Shown: positions 13,142 through 54,446 of the stretch, piece after piece
How positions within the stretch are numbered: the stretch's first letter is position 1
Layout: every line of letters begins with the position of its first letter
Assembly (NCBI RefSeq): GCF_011297335.1
Contig: NZ_JAAOTJ010000008.1
Location: 62,001-126,000 of the forward strand
Direction: 5' to 3'
Source of the DNA: Catellatospora methionotrophica
GTDB taxonomy: Bacteria; Actinomycetota; Actinomycetes; Mycobacteriales; Micromonosporaceae
DNA: 64,000 nt
Made by a program: the position numbers and the translations under genes
Notes under the pieces: model-generated
Database searches by the model: none
Seen by the model: only the letters and a program-made list of their open reading frames with translations
Told to the model about the DNA's origin: nothing

Positions 13142-14986
13142 ATGAATCACCCCCGTTCTCGGGGCTGGGCAGGCAAGGTGCGGCACCTGGCGCTACCGGC
13201 GCTGGCCCTGGCCGTCGTCGCGACGATCCCGTTGAGCAGCGGTTCGAGCGCATCCTCGGCCCCGGCGTGGACACCCCTCTCGCCGGTGTCGGTCAACATG
13301 GCCGCGGCGGCTCCGGCCGGCCACGCGGCGTACGGCAACCTGCTCGCGTTCAACGACTTCCACGGCGCGATCGACGCGCCGACCGGCAGCGGCGCGGCGG
13401 TGCTGGGCACCCCCGCGGGCGGTGTCGAATACCTGGCGCACTGGGTCAAGAAGCTGCGTGCCGAGGGCGAGGCGGCCGGACAGGACGTCGTCACCGTCGG
13501 CGCGGGCGACATGATCGGCGCGACGCCACTGGTCAGCGCGGCGTTCCACGACGAGCCCACCATCGAGCTGCTCAGCGAGCTGGGCCTGGACGTCACCTCG
13601 GTCGGCAACCACGAGTTCGACGAGGGCGTCACCGAGCTCAAGCGGATGCAGCACGGCGGCTGCCACCCGGTCGACGGCTGCTTCGCCGGCGACGGCTTCG
13701 ACGGCGCGGCGTTCCAGTATCTCGCCGCGAACGTCACCGACAAGCGCACCAAGCTGCCCATCCTGCCGCCGGTCGACGTGAAGATCATCGACGGCGTGCC
13801 GGTCGGTTTCATCGGCATGACGCTGGAGGGCACCCCCGGCATCGTCAACCCGGCGGGCATCACCACGGTCGACTTCCGCGACGAGGTCGAGACGGCGAAC
13901 CTGTGGAGCAGCCTGCTCCGCCTGCTCGGCGTCAAGGCGCAGGTGCTGCTGCTGCACGAGGGCGGCCAGCAGGGCGCCACCGGCAACATCTCCACCTGTG
14001 ACGGCTTCACCGGCGTGATCTCCCCGATCGTGGCCGGGCTGCGCGACGAGATCGGCGTCGTGGTCTCCGGCCACACCCACCGCTTCTACTCGTGCTCGCT
14101 GCCCAACAAGTCGGGCAAGCCCGTCGTGGTCACCAGCGCCGGCACCAATGGCCAGCTGGTCACCGACATCACGCTGAACATGGACCGCCGCAGCCGCACC
14201 TTCACCTCGATCGAGGCGCACAACGTCGTCGTCGAGAACGGCGTACGCAACGCCGACGGCACCTGGCAGACCACCGCACCGGGCGTGTTCGTGCGCAACC
14301 CCGCGCTGGCCGACCCGGCCGCCAAGGCGATCGCGGACAAGTACCGCACCGCCGTGGCGCCGCTGGCCAACCGGGTCGTCGGCAGTGTCACCGCCGACAT
14401 CGTGCGCGACGCCCAGCCCAGCGGGGAGAGCCCGCTCGGCGACGTCATCGCCGACGCCCAGCTGGCCTGGACCGCCTCGGCCGGGGCACAGCTCGCGCTG
14501 ATGAACCCGGGCGGCATCCGCGCCGCGATCACGTACGCCAACTCCCCCGGCGGCGAGGCGCCGGGCCAGGTGACCTACGGCGAGGCGTTCACCGTCCAGC
14601 CGTTCAACAACCTGGTGGTGACCGCGTCGCTGACCGGCGCGCAGCTCGACGCGGTGCTGGAGCAGCAGTTCGCCGGCCACGCCGGGCAGAACACCACCAA
14701 GATCCTCCAGGTCTCGGCGGGCTTCACCTACTCGTACGACAGCACCCTGCCGCTGGGCAGCCGGGTCTCCGACCTGAAGCTCAACGGCACGCCGATCGAC
14801 CCGGCGGCTTCGTACAAGGTGACGACGAACGACTTCCTGGCCAACGGCGGCGACAACTTCACGGCGCTGACCGCGGGCACGGGCCGGGTCTACGCCCCCG
14901 GGTTCGACGTCGACGCCCTGGTGGCGCACCTGGCCACCGGCCCGATCACCCCGGGACCGGCCAACCGCATCACCAAGCTCGGCTGA
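13142..14986 (+). CDS. Secreted 5'-nucleotidase/UDP-sugar hydrolase family metallophosphatase
   Basis: A 614-residue protein from ATG 13142, which has TGGAGG at 6-base spacing; a start 84 bases upstream would bury the signal peptide. Residues 1 to ~42 form a Sec signal (RHLALPALALAVVATIPLSS, SSA/APA-type cleavage). The metallophosphatase domain shows FNDFHG, GAGDMIG, VGNHEFDEG and VSGHTHRFYSC. The C-terminal 5'-nucleotidase domain begins around ERVVGSVTAD-like sequence and includes ALMNPGGIRA and NDFLANGGDNF. It probably recovers phosphate and nucleosides from external nucleotides. No cell-wall anchor is seen. Confidence 0.93.
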   Translation: MNHPRSRGWAGKVRHLALPALALAVVATIPLSSGSSASSAPAWTPLSPVSVNMAAAAPAGHAAYGNLLAFNDFHGAIDAPTGSGAAVLGTPAGGVEYLAHWVKKLRAEGEAAGQDVVTVGAGDMIGATPLVSAAFHDEPTIELLSELGLDVTSVGNHEFDEGVTELKRMQHGGCHPVDGCFAGDGFDGAAFQYLAANVTDKRTKLPILPPVDVKIIDGVPVGFIGMTLEGTPGIVNPAGITTVDFRDEVETANLWSSLLRLLGVKAQVLLLHEGGQQGATGNISTCDGFTGVISPIVAGLRDEIGVVVSGHTHRFYSCSLPNKSGKPVVVTSAGTNGQLVTDITLNMDRRSRTFTSIEAHNVVVENGVRNADGTWQTTAPGVFVRNPALADPAAKAIADKYRTAVAPLANRVVGSVTADIVRDAQPSGESPLGDVIADAQLAWTASAGAQLALMNPGGIRAAITYANSPGGEAPGQVTYGEAFTVQPFNNLVVTASLTGAQLDAVLEQQFAGHAGQNTTKILQVSAGFTYSYDSTLPLGSRVSDLKLNGTPIDPAASYKVTTNDFLANGGDNFTALTAGTGRVYAPGFDVDALVAHLATGPITPGPANRITKLG

Positions 14987-15031
14987 CCCACCGCACCGAT
15001 AGATCGAGGTCTCACATGATGGTCGACGTGC

Positions 15032-15059
15032 TTGCACCGCGAGGTATCCATGGCATACT
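15032..15059 (+). promoter_or_regulatory. Putative promoter of the aroQ leader transcript
   Basis: TTGCAC (15032-15037), a 16-base spacer and CATACT (15054-15059) resemble sigma-70-type boxes. Seven bases after the -10 is the GTG of the leader ORF (15067), so the leader would be leaderless, a common arrangement in actinobacteria. An in-frame ATG at 15016 preceded by GAGGT is the alternative if transcription starts earlier. Confidence 0.5.
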
Positions 15060-15066
15060 TGGCAAC

Positions 15067-15132
15067 GTGATCAACCAGGCGTTCTACTTTACCTATGGCA
15101 CCGGGAACCCGGCAGTCGTAGGTCGTGCCTGA
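15067..15132 (+). CDS. Phe/Tyr-rich leader peptide of the chorismate mutase gene
   Basis: A 21-codon ORF, GTG start, TGA stop, beginning MINQAFYFTYGTG. Four of five consecutive codons are aromatic (TTC TAC TTT ACC TAT). The stop codon lies in the loop of a hairpin formed by AGGTCGTGC and GCAC-AGA-GACCT (about 15119-15144), and a 14-bp terminator follows at 15148-15180 before aroQ. This is the layout of ribosome-mediated transcription attenuation, with aromatic amino acids as the signal for an enzyme on the Phe/Tyr branch. It is inferred from sequence; I know of no proof for this gene. Confidence 0.7.
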   Translation: MINQAFYFTYGTGNPAVVGRA

Positions 15133-15147
15133 GCACAGAGACCTCAC

Positions 15148-15180
15148 GAAAGCCCCGGGCTCCCAGAGCCCGGGGCTTTC
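15148..15180 (+). terminator. Attenuator-type intrinsic terminator before aroQ
   Basis: GAAAGCCCCGGGCT (148-161) pairs exactly with AGCCCGGGGCTTTC (167-180) around a 5-base loop, followed by GCCTTTG. It sits 50 bases before the aroQ start. The ACCCGG segment inside the leader ORF (about 15107-15112) could pair with the CCGGG of the terminator arm to give an alternative fold. Confidence 0.75.
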
Positions 15181-15229
15181 GCCTTTGTCCCGGCCACTGG
15201 TGAGCGACAATCCCACTGAGGAGTCCCAC

Positions 15230-15514
15230 ATGAGCGCCATCGCCCACGAGACCGGCAGTACGACGCCCGAGGCGGCCACGGAGATCACGTCCATGCGTGA
15301 GCGCATAGACCAGATCGACGCCGCACTGATCGCACTGTGGAAGGAGCGTGCCGCGATCTCGCAGCAGGTCGGCAAGACCCGTGTCGCGTCCGGCGGCACC
15401 CGCCTGGTGCTCAGCCGCGAGCGCGAGATCATGGACCGCTTCCGCGCCGAACTCGGCCCCGACGGCACCCAACTCGCCCTGCTCATCCTCCGCGCCGGCC
15501 GCGGCCCCCTCTGA
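15230..15514 (+). CDS. aroQ: AroQ-type chorismate mutase
   Basis: A 94-residue intracellular chorismate mutase converting chorismate to prephenate. The helical AroQ pattern is clear: MRERIDQIDAALIALWKERA (R23, R40), GKTRVASGGTRLVLSRERE (K49, R51, R58), then LGPDGTQLALLILRAGRGPL. The ASGGTRLV insert and the GRGxL tail match the short M. tuberculosis enzyme Rv0948c, which has low activity alone and is activated by DAHP synthase through its C-terminus; the same is likely here. ATG 15230 follows GAGGAG with a 7-base spacer. Expression is probably controlled by the upstream leader and attenuator. Confidence 0.93.
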   Translation: MSAIAHETGSTTPEAATEITSMRERIDQIDAALIALWKERAAISQQVGKTRVASGGTRLVLSREREIMDRFRAELGPDGTQLALLILRAGRGPL

Positions 15515-15540: not shown

Positions 15541-15609
15541 TGCCGCAACTCTTAAAGAGTCGCGCCTTCAGCAAGCCCGGATGACCGCGACTCTTTAAGA
15601 GTTGCGGCA
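15541..15609. repeat. Intergenic palindrome family C, copy 1 (24-bp arms)
   Basis: TGCCGCAACTCTTAAAGAGTCGCG begins at 15541 (24 nt) and its perfect reverse complement ends at 15609, with a 21-base centre. Each arm is itself an imperfect palindrome (CGCAACTCTTNAAGAGTNGCG). It lies between convergent aroQ and the peptide-transporter operon. A half-size relative is at 48594-48614. Confidence 0.85.
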
Positions 15610-15777: not shown

Positions 15778-16788
15778 CTACCCTGCCGCGTGCACCACGT
15801 CCCGCTCCTGCGCGAAGTGGCATGCGCTCGGGTGTCCCGAGGTGGGACGGATCTGCAGCAGCGGCTCCTCCACCGAGCAGATCTCCTGTGCCTTCCAGCA
15901 CCGGGTGCGGAAACGGCAGCCCGACGGCGGGTTGGCCGGCGACGGGACGTCGCCCTCCAGCCGGATGACCGCCTTGCGCTGCCGCGCCGTGGGGTCCGGC
16001 ACCGGCACCGCGGACAGCAGAGCCTGCGTGTACGGGTGCGTCGGCCGGACGTAGATGTCGTCGTCGGTACCGACCTCGACCATCTTCCCGAGGTACATCA
16101 CGCCGACGCGGTCGGCGATGTGGCGCACCACCGACAGGTCGTGGGCGATGAAGATGTACGACAGGTTGAAATCGGTCTGCAGCTGGTCGAGCAGGTTCAT
16201 CACCTGAGCCTGGATCGACACGTCGAGTGCCGACACGGGCTCGTCGCAGACGATGACCTCGGGCTTGAGAGCCAGCGCGCGGGCGATGCCGATGCGCTGG
16301 CGCTGGCCGCCGGAGAACTGGTGCGGGTACCGGTTGATGTGCTCGGGGTTGAGACCGACCACGTCGAGCAGTTCCTGCACCTTGCGCCGCCGCTCGCCCT
16401 TGGGCGCGACCTCGGGGTGGATCTCGTACGGCTCCCCGACGATGTCGCCCACGGTCATCCGCGGGTTGAGCGAGGTGTACGGGTCCTGCATGACGAGCTG
16501 GATGTTGCGGCGCAGCCGGCGCTGATCGGCCGGGTTGAGCCGCAGCACGTCCCGCCCCTGGTAGCGCACCTCGCCCGAGGTGGGCTTCTCCAGGTTCATC
16601 AGCAGCTTGGCCAGCGTCGACTTGCCGCAGCCCGACTCGCCGACGATGCCCAGGGTCTCGCCCTTGTGCAGGTCGAGCGATACGCCGTCGACCGCCTTGA
16701 TCTGCCCGATGGTGCGCTTGAAGAGGATGCCCTGGCGGATCGGGAAGTGCTTGACCAGGTCACGTACTTCGAGGATCACTTCACTCAC
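15778..16788 (-). CDS. Dipeptide/oligopeptide ABC transporter ATPase, OppF/DppF type
   Basis: A 336-residue cytosolic ATPase of a peptide importer. Walker A is GIVGESGCGKSTLAKLLM, the signature is FSGGQRQRIGIARAL, and Walker B is VIVCDEPVSALDVS. The C-terminal oligo_HPY segment includes HPYTQALLSAVPVPDP and GCRFRTRCWKAQEICS with the CxxRCxxAxxxC cysteines that often bind an Fe-S cluster in this family. It overlaps the upstream ATPase gene by 8 bases. Substrate (dipeptide, oligopeptide or other) cannot be told from sequence. Confidence 0.92.
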   Translation of the reverse strand: MSEVILEVRDLVKHFPIRQGILFKRTIGQIKAVDGVSLDLHKGETLGIVGESGCGKSTLAKLLMNLEKPTSGEVRYQGRDVLRLNPADQRRLRRNIQLVMQDPYTSLNPRMTVGDIVGEPYEIHPEVAPKGERRRKVQELLDVVGLNPEHINRYPHQFSGGQRQRIGIARALALKPEVIVCDEPVSALDVSIQAQVMNLLDQLQTDFNLSYIFIAHDLSVVRHIADRVGVMYLGKMVEVGTDDDIYVRPTHPYTQALLSAVPVPDPTARQRKAVIRLEGDVPSPANPPSGCRFRTRCWKAQEICSVEEPLLQIRPTSGHPSACHFAQERDVVHAAG

Positions 16789-52241: not shown

Positions 52242-53417
52242 ATGCGAGCGGGACCGAGCCAGGAGGAGATCCGGCGGCAGAACCTCGGCGCGTTGCTGCG
52301 GTTCGTGCACGTACGCGGCTCCATCTCCCGCGCCGAGCTCACCTCGGAACTCGGTCTCAACCGCTCCACCATCGGCGCCCTCACCGCTGACCTGGCCGCT
52401 GTCGGCCTGGTCAGCGAGGAGGCGCCGCGGGAGACCGGCCGCGCCGGCCGCCCGTCGCTGGTGGTGCGCCCGTCCTCGGAACTGGTCTACGCCTACGCCG
52501 CGAGCGTGGAGGTGGACCGGGTCCGGGTGGCGCGGGTCGGGCTGGGCGGCGTCATCCTCGATCAGCGGGAGGCGCCGCGCCCGCGCGGCGAGGCCATCGA
52601 GGCGGTACGCCCGGTCGCCGAGTTCGTCGCGCAGATGGCCGAGAACGTCAAGCCGCAGGCCCGCTGCATCGGGGCCGGTATCGCCGTGTGCGGGCTGGTC
52701 CGCCGCGAGGACGGCCTGGTCCGCCTCGGGCCGCATCTGGGCTGGCTGGACGAGCCGCTCGGGCACGCGCTGCAGGACCGGCTGCCCGACCTGCTACCGC
52801 AGGTCGCCGTCGGCAACGTGGCGGACCTGTGCGCGCTGGCCGAGCACACCCGCGGTGTCGCGGTGGGCTGCGACAACATCATCTACATGTACGGCGACGT
52901 CGGCGTCGGCGCGGGCATCATCGCGGGCGGTCGCCGGGTCACCGGGCACGGCGGCTACGGCGGCGAGGTCGGCCACATGGTCGTCAACCCGCACGGCCGC
53001 CCCTGCGGCTGCGGCTCCCGGGGCTGCTGGGAGACCGAGATCGGCGAGCACGCGCTGCTGCACGCCGCGGGCCGCGACACCGCCCTGGGCAACGCGGCCG
53101 TGCTGGCCGTGGTCGAGGCCGCCGCCCGTGGCGACGCGACCGCGCAGATGGCGGTGCGCCAGGTCGGCGACTGGCTCGGCTTCGGCGTGGCGAACCTGGT
53201 CAACATCTTCAACCCGGAGCTGGTCATCTTCGGCGGCACCCTGCGCGACGTGTACCTGGCCGCCGCGGCGCAGGTGCGCAGCCGCCTGAACAGCATCGGC
53301 CTGCCCGCCACCCGCGAGCACGTCCGGCTGCGCACACCCAAGCTGGGCGGGGACGCCGCGCTGCTGGGCGCGGCGGAACTCGCCTTCGAGCAGTTGCTGG
53401 CCGACCCGCTCGGGTGA
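52242..53417 (+). CDS. ROK-family transcriptional regulator (XylR/NagC type)
   Basis: A 391-residue repressor. The N-terminal winged helix is RAELTSELGLNRSTIGALTAD. The sugar-kinase-like ROK domain has GDVGVGAGIIAGG, GYGGEVGHMVVNPHGRPCGC and the zinc/structural motif CGCGSRGCWE. ATG 52242 is preceded by ACGGGAG. It lies 28 bases after the permease gene and probably regulates the operon in response to imported sugar. The ATP-binding segment is not evident, as is usual for ROK repressors. Confidence 0.92.
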   Translation: MRAGPSQEEIRRQNLGALLRFVHVRGSISRAELTSELGLNRSTIGALTADLAAVGLVSEEAPRETGRAGRPSLVVRPSSELVYAYAASVEVDRVRVARVGLGGVILDQREAPRPRGEAIEAVRPVAEFVAQMAENVKPQARCIGAGIAVCGLVRREDGLVRLGPHLGWLDEPLGHALQDRLPDLLPQVAVGNVADLCALAEHTRGVAVGCDNIIYMYGDVGVGAGIIAGGRRVTGHGGYGGEVGHMVVNPHGRPCGCGSRGCWETEIGEHALLHAAGRDTALGNAAVLAVVEAAARGDATAQMAVRQVGDWLGFGVANLVNIFNPELVIFGGTLRDVYLAAAAQVRSRLNSIGLPATREHVRLRTPKLGGDAALLGAAELAFEQLLADPLG

Positions 53418-53453
53418 ATACCGGCCGGTAGCCCGAGCCATCCAGCACAATGG

Positions 53454-54446
53454 ATGGTCGTGCCGGTCACTCTCCCACCCCGCCGCCTGCCCGGCCTCGC
53501 CGACGCGCCCCACGCGATCCCGTACCAGGGCAGCAAGCGCCGGCTCGCGCACGCGATCGTGCCGCTGCTCCCGCCCGACACCGCACGGCTGCTGGAGCCG
53601 TTCGCCGGGTCGGCCGCCGTCGCCATCGCCGCCCGGCACCTGCGCATCGGCGAGACCGCCGAGATCAGCGACGTGAACGAGCCGCTGATGCGGCTGTGGC
53701 AGCGGGTGCTGGCCGAGCCGCTGGCGCTGGCCGCCGACTACGAGCGGCTGTGGCACGAGCAGCTGACCGACCCGAAGGCGTACTACGACGCGGTGCGCAC
53801 CCGTTTCAACGAGACCCACGAGCCGCACTGCCTGCTCTACCTGCTCGCCCGCTGCGTCAAGGCGGCGGTGCGCTACAACCGCGAGGGCGGCTTCAACCAG
53901 GGCCCCGACCGGCGGCGGCTGGGCGCGCGCCCCGACGCGATGCGGCTCCGGCTGACCGCGACCGCCCGCGTGCTGACCGGCTGCCGCGCGTACACCGCCG
54001 ACTACGCCGACGTGCTGAGCCGGGCATGCCCTGATGACGTGGTTTACCTCGACCCGCCGTACCAGGGCGTGAGTCAGGCGCGCGACCACCGGTACATGGC
54101 CGGGATGCCGCGGGAGGCGTTCGTGGCGCGGCTGCGCGAGGCGGTCACCCGGGGGACGTCGTTCCTGCTGTCGTACGACGGGCTGTCCCGCGACGGCGAC
54201 GCCGCCGAGCGCACCTACGGCGACCCGCTCCCCACCGACCTGGGCCTGCTCCACCTGCACCTCGACGCGGGCACGTCCTCCCAGGCCACCCTCAACGGCC
54301 GCCACACCCGCACCGTCGAGTCCCTCTACCTCTCCCCCGCCCTGGCCACCCGCCTCGGCGGCCCCGCCGCCGTCCACGAGTCGCTGACCGCCCCGGTCAC
54401 CGAGCCCCGTGCCGCGCCAGCCGCTGGCACCCCCCGCCTCGAATAG
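53454..54446 (+). CDS. D12-class DNA adenine N6-methyltransferase (Dam-like)
   Basis: A 330-residue methyltransferase. The motif order is that of the D12 class: Y24-Q-G-S-K, then the SAM motif EPFAGSAAVA (48-57), YNREGGFNQG, and the catalytic D200-P-P-Y203. No restriction enzyme or partner lies nearby, so it appears orphan. It starts 36 bases after the ROK gene with no clear ribosome-binding site; GTG 53460 is an equally possible start. Palindrome B overlaps its last codons. Recognition site is unknown (GATC is only a class-based guess). Confidence 0.85.
   Translation: MVVPVTLPPRRLPGLADAPHAIPYQGSKRRLAHAIVPLLPPDTARLLEPFAGSAAVAIAARHLRIGETAEISDVNEPLMRLWQRVLAEPLALAADYERLWHEQLTDPKAYYDAVRTRFNETHEPHCLLYLLARCVKAAVRYNREGGFNQGPDRRRLGARPDAMRLRLTATARVLTGCRAYTADYADVLSRACPDDVVYLDPPYQGVSQARDHRYMAGMPREAFVARLREAVTRGTSFLLSYDGLSRDGDAAERTYGDPLPTDLGLLHLHLDAGTSSQATLNGRHTRTVESLYLSPALATRLGGPAAVHESLTAPVTEPRAAPAAGTPRLE

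Follow-up and report, generated by a model that had tools for sequence, protein, structure and literature searches.

Chorismate mutase is the branch point towards phenylalanine and tyrosine. For the mycobacterial type of this enzyme, the recorded layer of control is that the protein is activated when it forms a complex with DAHP synthase (PMC4281200). The aroQ gene of Catellatospora methionotrophica, found in a stretch of 64,000 nucleotides that we refer to as the window, raises the question of whether this enzyme is also controlled at the level of its transcript. We conclude with high confidence that aroQ is controlled by a trp/phe-type ribosome-mediated transcription attenuator, which would sense charged tRNA-Phe and tRNA-Tyr from a leaderless transcript. 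This reading is based on the anatomy of the upstream region, its conservation, pairing that persists through changes on both sides of the helices, computed energies and, within the order, its near-exclusive placement before aroQ.

The aroQ gene and the leader upstream of it

All features of aroQ and its leader given here lie on the forward (+) strand of the window. The aroQ gene (15230–15514) encodes a chorismate mutase of 94 amino acids that matched PF01817 (40 bits, cut-off 27) as well as the NCBIfam models PRK07857 (111.6 bits) and TIGR01808 (85.2 bits), exceeding the cut-offs of both, and that is 98% identical to the AroQ of Catellatospora coxensis. Its Shine-Dalgarno sequence, GAGGAG, is located at 15218–15223. 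The gene appears to stand alone, and the next gene-like long ORF past it (15778–16788), which we take from its motifs to be an ABC-type ATPase, runs in the opposite direction. Right behind aroQ lies an inverted repeat (15543–15607, arms CCGCAACTCTTAAAGAGTCGCG and CGCGACTCTTTAAGAGTTGCGG) that has very similar counterparts at loci L008 and L257.

The 21-codon ORF with the codons TTC TAC TTT ACC TAT that had been predicted upstream of aroQ is present as described. It starts with GTG, spans 15067–15132 including its TGA stop codon (15130–15132) and encodes the peptide VINQAFYFTYGTGNPAVVGRA. The five control codons (Phe, Tyr, Phe, Thr, Tyr) are located at 15082–15096, within a conserved aromatic block. 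A promoter was recognized from sequence and conservation at 15032–15059, with the −35 element TTGCAC (15032–15037) and the −10 element CATACT (15054–15059) separated by a spacer of 16 nt. CATACT lies exactly 7 nt ahead of the leader GTG, the position originally proposed for it, and is conserved: in 113 leaders from the same family, the block GGCATACT was strongly conserved and TTGC weakly.

No Shine-Dalgarno sequence precedes the leader ORF in the window, and SD-like motifs ahead of the leader start were found in 0 of 189 leaders collected from many genomes. In 143 of these 189 the −10 element lay 6–7 nt from the start codon; other spacings occurred in 12, and in 34 no −10 element was found. 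The spacing and the lack of SD-like motifs support the earlier suggestion of a leaderless leader mRNA, so the leader transcript is probably leaderless and starts at or beside the GTG. We discarded the longer ORF that an in-frame ATG at 15017 would open, since the conserved promoter comes after this ATG, which should thus be absent from the leader transcript.

As the 189 leaders were chosen by a pattern that required an aromatic-like triplet before Gly, the tallies of their aromatic residues (F 382, Y 404 and W 4) are partly by construction, as is the occurrence of both F and Y directly ahead of Gly in 188 of them. The rare codon TTT makes up 266 of the 382 Phe codons in these leaders; seven long ORFs from the window, regarded as genes, use it for 1 of their 96 Phe codons. 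Phe and Tyr control codons fit an enzyme whose product is a step on the way to these two amino acids, and this codon content predicts a response to Phe and Tyr, not to Trp.

Conservation and spread of the leader

To follow the leader across genomes, aroQ relatives were gathered from genomes of the same family, order and class (252 loci minus L020, leaving 251, with 243 distinct upstream regions, a few rows of which are near-duplicates, as named loci overlap other genomes in the set). A loose rule, an ORF with at least three F, Y or W within six codons upstream of aroQ, was satisfied by 208 of the 243 regions; the rate was 7 of 243 for the reverse strand and 9.2 of 243 for dinucleotide shuffles. 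The aromatic ORF before aroQ is therefore far beyond chance. The misses include L107 and L082, which were mis-cut near contig ends; the gene at L107 does have the element according to R1, a covariance model built on the form seen in the family, and several other misses hold an element with fewer aromatics when read by eye.

The conservation profile of the 113 same-family leaders peaked at the −10 element, the start codon, the aromatic codons, the helix around the stop codon and the terminator, and was low in the spacer and the first leader codons. The parts that are kept thus include both the aromatic codons and the hairpins, which the original prediction had expected to persist while the rest drifts. 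A simpler explanation would be that the hairpin merely terminates the 5′-nucleotidase gene upstream, which lies on the same strand as aroQ and has its 3′ end at 14986, about 160 nt before the hairpin, and that the aromatic ORF arose by chance. However, promoter, ORF and pairing are conserved where the DNA farther upstream differs, and the element tracks aroQ across families (208 of 243 regions versus 7 in the control), which makes this explanation scarcely credible.

R1 found the element in 99 of 101 same-family genomes, and in 89 of 89 of good quality. R2, a broader covariance model, matched in 99 of 121 genomes of the order and placed the element before aroQ in 95 of the 109 that bear this gene, with no match at aroQ in the other 14. 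Among the best 103 listed matches in the order, the first 93 (E ≤ 2.5e-7) all shared the strand of aroQ and lay 0–500 bp ahead of it. Within the order, the element is placed near-exclusively before aroQ. In the class set, compared by eye, R2 matched before aroQ in 17 of 39 aroQ-bearing genomes and gave no match there in 22; the 17 consist of 6 from the same order and 11 from families f33 (all 7), f36, f46 and f50 (family labels are arbitrary numbers). A related stretch, TTTTATGGG, was seen by eye in some f32 genomes. The putative attenuator is kept across many actinobacterial families and, being so widespread, is probably old.

Some loci depart from this pattern. Genome G266 carries two aroQ copies (L171 and L177), each preceded by a diverged leader-like ORF with a weak R1 score. 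In family f8, loci L066, L068, L194, L203, L204 and L207 have no aromatic leader and no R2 match, and leader loss in part of this family is suggested. In the C. methionotrophica genome itself R1 gave nine matches, one of which is the aroQ leader and another overlaps it on the opposite strand. Five of the remaining seven (E 4.5e-4 and weaker) were read by eye and are plain terminators without an aromatic leader ORF. No Rfam family, T-box included, matched the window at its gathering score, and three matches below it fell at 14950–15300 (E 0.07 to 0.37).

Alternative helices and the proposed switch

The leader ends in a computed 3:4 intrinsic terminator at 15147–15181, with a 16-bp stem (15147–15162 and 15166–15181), the loop CCA and a fold energy of −36.6 kcal/mol at 30 °C, followed in the window by a short and weak U-tract (CTTTCGCC). 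The terminator and layout of the original prediction thus hold, although the stem has 16 rather than 14 bp, and the distance from stem to aroQ at 15230 is 48 nt where 50 had been given. A hairpin with a nearby T-run is present in 187 of 189 leaders (mean −27.6 kcal/mol, obtained without a control run). Past the terminator the window contains a CCGGG or CCCGG element (15189–15193). Of 178 leaders, 89 have the first copy of this element 10–14 nt beyond the 3′ arm of the terminator. In read-through RNA, where that arm is freed, the element could base-pair with it.

A hairpin over the leader stop codon, also predicted earlier, was found in the computed fold as a helix of 15116–15128 with 15133–15149 (feature span 15116–15149), whose loop holds the stop codon and which is nested in the antiterminator described below. 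In 13 of 16 families this inner helix scored better with its cognate partners than with swapped ones, and it was weaker in f8, f3 and f46. In 8 of the 113 same-family leaders the core of the helix is kept but lies in another reading frame, which indicates that the RNA rather than the peptide is conserved there.

Two further helices, missed by the original prediction although its attenuation layout stands, complete the structure. The 1:2 hairpin (15094–15120), recognized from pairing in relatives, joins TATGGC (the last Tyr codon plus Gly, 15094–15099) to GTCGTA (15115–15120). Its general form joins an NCCGTR located downstream to the last Tyr codon and Gly, and across families GGC/GCC is exchanged for GGG/CCC. 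The antiterminator, 2:3, pairs region 2 (15103–15112, the 5′ strand, GGGAACCCGG) in a fixed register with region 3 (15155–15164, the 3′ strand, CCGGGCTCCC), leaving one A–C mismatch. Region 3 consists of some of the terminator 5′ arm together with the first loop bases, so that leader codons 13–16 pair with that arm. When the window sequence itself is folded, the best structure shifts the last three 2:3 pairs to 15111–15113 with 15152–15154. In general form, ten bases from the third codon past the last Tyr (GGGAGTCCGG, CGGACTCCGG, CGGTCCGCGG) pair with a terminator arm such as CCGGGCTCCx, CCGGAGTCCx or CCGCGGTCCG, in one register.

Both helices were evaluated in three alignments. A1 contains 82 of the 113 same-family leaders, after removal of near-duplicates (more than 93% alike) and of rows without a clear CCCCG arm. 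A3 combines 59 of 76 leaders from outside the family, filtered in the same way, with six from the family (65 sequences). A2 was a first selection of 50 sequences (44 of these 59 plus the six), which left out 15 of the 59, including all from f3, f5, f11, f33, f46 and f50; A3 restores them. The 1:2 helix was paired in 98.6% of cells in A1, where no slide exceeded 58.0%, and across families in 88.7% (A2, n = 50) and 87.9% (A3, n = 65); in each alignment 0 of 500 shuffles reached as high. A3 contained 30 double-change cells for 1:2 versus 11.7 in shuffles, and among 17 families cognate 1:2 arms outscored swapped ones in 13, the exceptions being f16, f46, f9 and f32.

For 2:3, 78.6% of cells were paired in A3 versus 70.9 in shuffles (0 of 500 as high), with 57 double-change cells versus 19.3 (0 of 500), the best value of all slides; the corresponding A2 values were 80.0 versus 72.7, and 33 versus 13.7. 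As kinship among rows can beat such shuffles without any structure, slides and swaps are the stronger controls. In the fixed register, 8.96 of ten pairs formed in f1, 9.14 in f15 and 8.33 in f8, compared with 6.95, 6.70 and 5.12 when arms were swapped in from other families. The gain was slight in f4, f13, f7, f9 and f2 and absent in f16, f33, f5, f3, f46, f12, f11, f50 and f32, nine families represented mostly by few sequences. A floating register improved f16, f33 and f4, and did not improve f12, f5, f46, f11 or f9. The fixed-register test took the place of duplex energies computed in free form for region 2 and the terminator arm, which gave no cognate-versus-swapped signal within f1 and a small one outside it (−15.99 versus −14.41), because GC-rich arms pair with anything. 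RNAalifold on A1 displayed 1:2 and the terminator and not 2:3, as would be expected of a switch. Both 1:2 and 2:3 remain paired through changes on both sides.

These tests bear on two other explanations. The leader could encode a nascent-chain arrest peptide, in which residues past the aromatics affect the ribosome, possibly aided by a small-molecule co-inducer, so that the switch reads arrest and not tRNA charging. The C-terminal half of the peptide (YGYRxPVPV, GTGSPAAVGRA) does look conserved as a peptide within families. The conserved codons coincide, however, with the paired stretches of 1:2 and 2:3 and vary in step with their pairing partners, the core is in another frame in the 8 leaders mentioned above, and F and Y replace one another among the control codons; we regard an arrest peptide as very unlikely. 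Alternatively, control could operate mainly at translation or by Rho-dependent termination, with hairpins that just modulate access to the aroQ start. The weak U-tract of the window and the conserved CCGGG-like element past the terminator would agree with this, but the strong hairpin in 187 of 189 leaders and the precise 2:3 alternative favour intrinsic termination, and the aroQ Shine-Dalgarno sequence at 15218 is outside the switch. Such control appears rather improbable as the main mechanism.

The computed energies agree with a switch between 2:3 and 3:4. The composite antiterminator (−35.2 kcal/mol) and the terminator (−36.6 kcal/mol, both at 30 °C) are nearly isoenergetic and mutually exclusive. 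When bases up to 15100 were masked and the RNA ended at 15164, the antiterminator was the best fold (−35.5), and with a ribosome over the stop codon the remaining 2:3 pairing was weak (−16.9). In the complete RNA the terminator was best in each computed case, including that of a stalled ribosome, which means that antitermination must be kinetic, as in trp. Ribosome-mediated attenuation by Phe/Tyr-tRNA, as originally proposed, is thereby supported in kind by the conserved aromatic codons together with the mutually exclusive antiterminator and terminator.

The 1:2, 2:3, 3:4 logic is that of the attenuators of E. coli trp and of pheA, which encodes a bifunctional chorismate mutase-prephenate dehydratase, and the aroQ leader has it in common with them. 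For this leader we infer the start site, translation, stalling, termination and the response to Phe and Tyr as follows. Transcription would begin at the GTG or beside it, with a ribosome engaging the leader immediately. A shortage of charged tRNA-Phe or tRNA-Tyr would make the ribosome stall on the F-Y-F-x-Y codons and cover region 1, which consists of the last Tyr codon and Gly, leaving region 2 free to pair with region 3, the 5′ arm of the terminator. The composite 2:3 hairpin, nucleated by the stop-codon helix, would act as the antiterminator, and aroQ would be transcribed. With both tRNAs charged, the ribosome would reach the stop codon in the loop of the inner helix and break the antiterminator; 3:4 could then form and transcription would stop near 15181. 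Without translation, 1:2 and 3:4 would form and transcription would be expected to stop too. The attenuator thus most likely turns aroQ on when Phe or Tyr run short. The terminated leader RNA or its peptide might also act in trans on other genes, and the Sinorhizobium trp leader has such a role; as the cis architecture accounts for the conserved parts, bar the element downstream of the terminator, we rate this as highly improbable.

Related leaders before DAHP synthase and in other systems

Away from aroQ, 14 R2 matches were read, of which 10 (L261–L267, L269, L271 and L273) place an aromatic leader ORF ahead of what looks like the start of a DAHP synthase and 4 do not. The ten have Trp/Phe/Tyr leader ORFs followed by a terminator, several with a FYGYRP-like core, and their type is exemplified by MQRNFWRFYGYRPISPVACKALR, with Trp, Phe and Tyr. 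Six of them are in f31 genomes, where the R2 match lies about 300–340 bp ahead of a PF00793 domain. The protein at L264 matched PF18152 and PF00793; the other loci were judged DAHP-synthase-like by the likeness of their protein starts. Among 30 type I DAHP synthase loci listed, 18 have an upstream aromatic leader ORF (15 of these with Trp), and among 30 type II loci listed 2 pass the aromatic rule, neither of them leader-like; within these counts L281, L286, L298, L324, L326 and L334 may be mis-cut.

The C. methionotrophica genome also contains such a locus (L309, contig C13), where the leader ORF MYWRFTLALGGAGGSLR (Tyr/Trp/Phe) precedes a type I DAHP synthase (PF00793 match at 52890–53771); two hairpins come after this ORF, first a long one and then one resembling a terminator. 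Judged from its sequence, this leader is probably an attenuator of the aroR type, the counterpart of aroR-aroF in Corynebacterium glutamicum. One ancestral family of aromatic attenuators may wire the actinomycete shikimate pathway at both ends, chorismate mutase and type I DAHP synthase, with each leader's codons spelling the end products of that step and with type II, whose mycobacterial relative partners chorismate mutase, having no leader; this is a possibility that we take seriously without quite favouring it. A common ancestor of the aroQ and DAHP-synthase leader classes is a guess from their likeness.

The aroR-aroF attenuator of C. glutamicum (Neshat et al. 2014) is described in PMC11802643 and was predicted in PMC4046766. 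According to these sources, it shares with the aroQ leader an actinobacterial Phe-Tyr-Phe leader peptide before an aromatic-pathway gene and ribosome stalling (predicted here), but it controls DAHP synthase, whereas the leader in the window precedes chorismate mutase, and it is reported to answer to Phe and not to Tyr. The E. coli pheA (pheL) and trp attenuators are likewise named in PMC11802643. Unlike these, the aroQ leader is predicted to be leaderless rather than SD-led, belongs to another lineage with another sequence, uses a composite antiterminator hairpin whose inner loop holds the stop codon, and carries both Phe and Tyr codons.

Attenuators of actinobacterial trp, ilv and leu genes are of the classical leader-peptide type, several of them leaderless (Seliverstov et al. 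2005, PMC1262725, and PMC8079986), and share type and phylum with the aroQ leader. The survey of Seliverstov et al. mentions that no conserved RNA structures were seen upstream of Phe/Tyr genes in Actinobacteria. Chorismate mutase is absent from the S. lividans table of eight leaders in the available part of PMC8079986, and it does not occur in that of Naville and Gautheret 2010. Within the literature searched, beyond which lie subscription papers, supplements and preprints, no report of attenuation for actinobacterial aroQ was found.

Leaderless polycysteine attenuators also reportedly exist in mycobacteria, as Canestrari and colleagues are said to have described in 2020. They have a leaderless short ORF like that of the aroQ leader, but with cysteine codons and before other genes. 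Leader-peptide attenuation is a known kind of control, to which the actinobacterial aroQ leader would add a new case. The attenuator would place the branch-point enzyme of Phe and Tyr under transcript-level control in a phylum rich in drug producers, and its leader would offer a ready sensor and an engineering handle for the supply of aromatic precursors.
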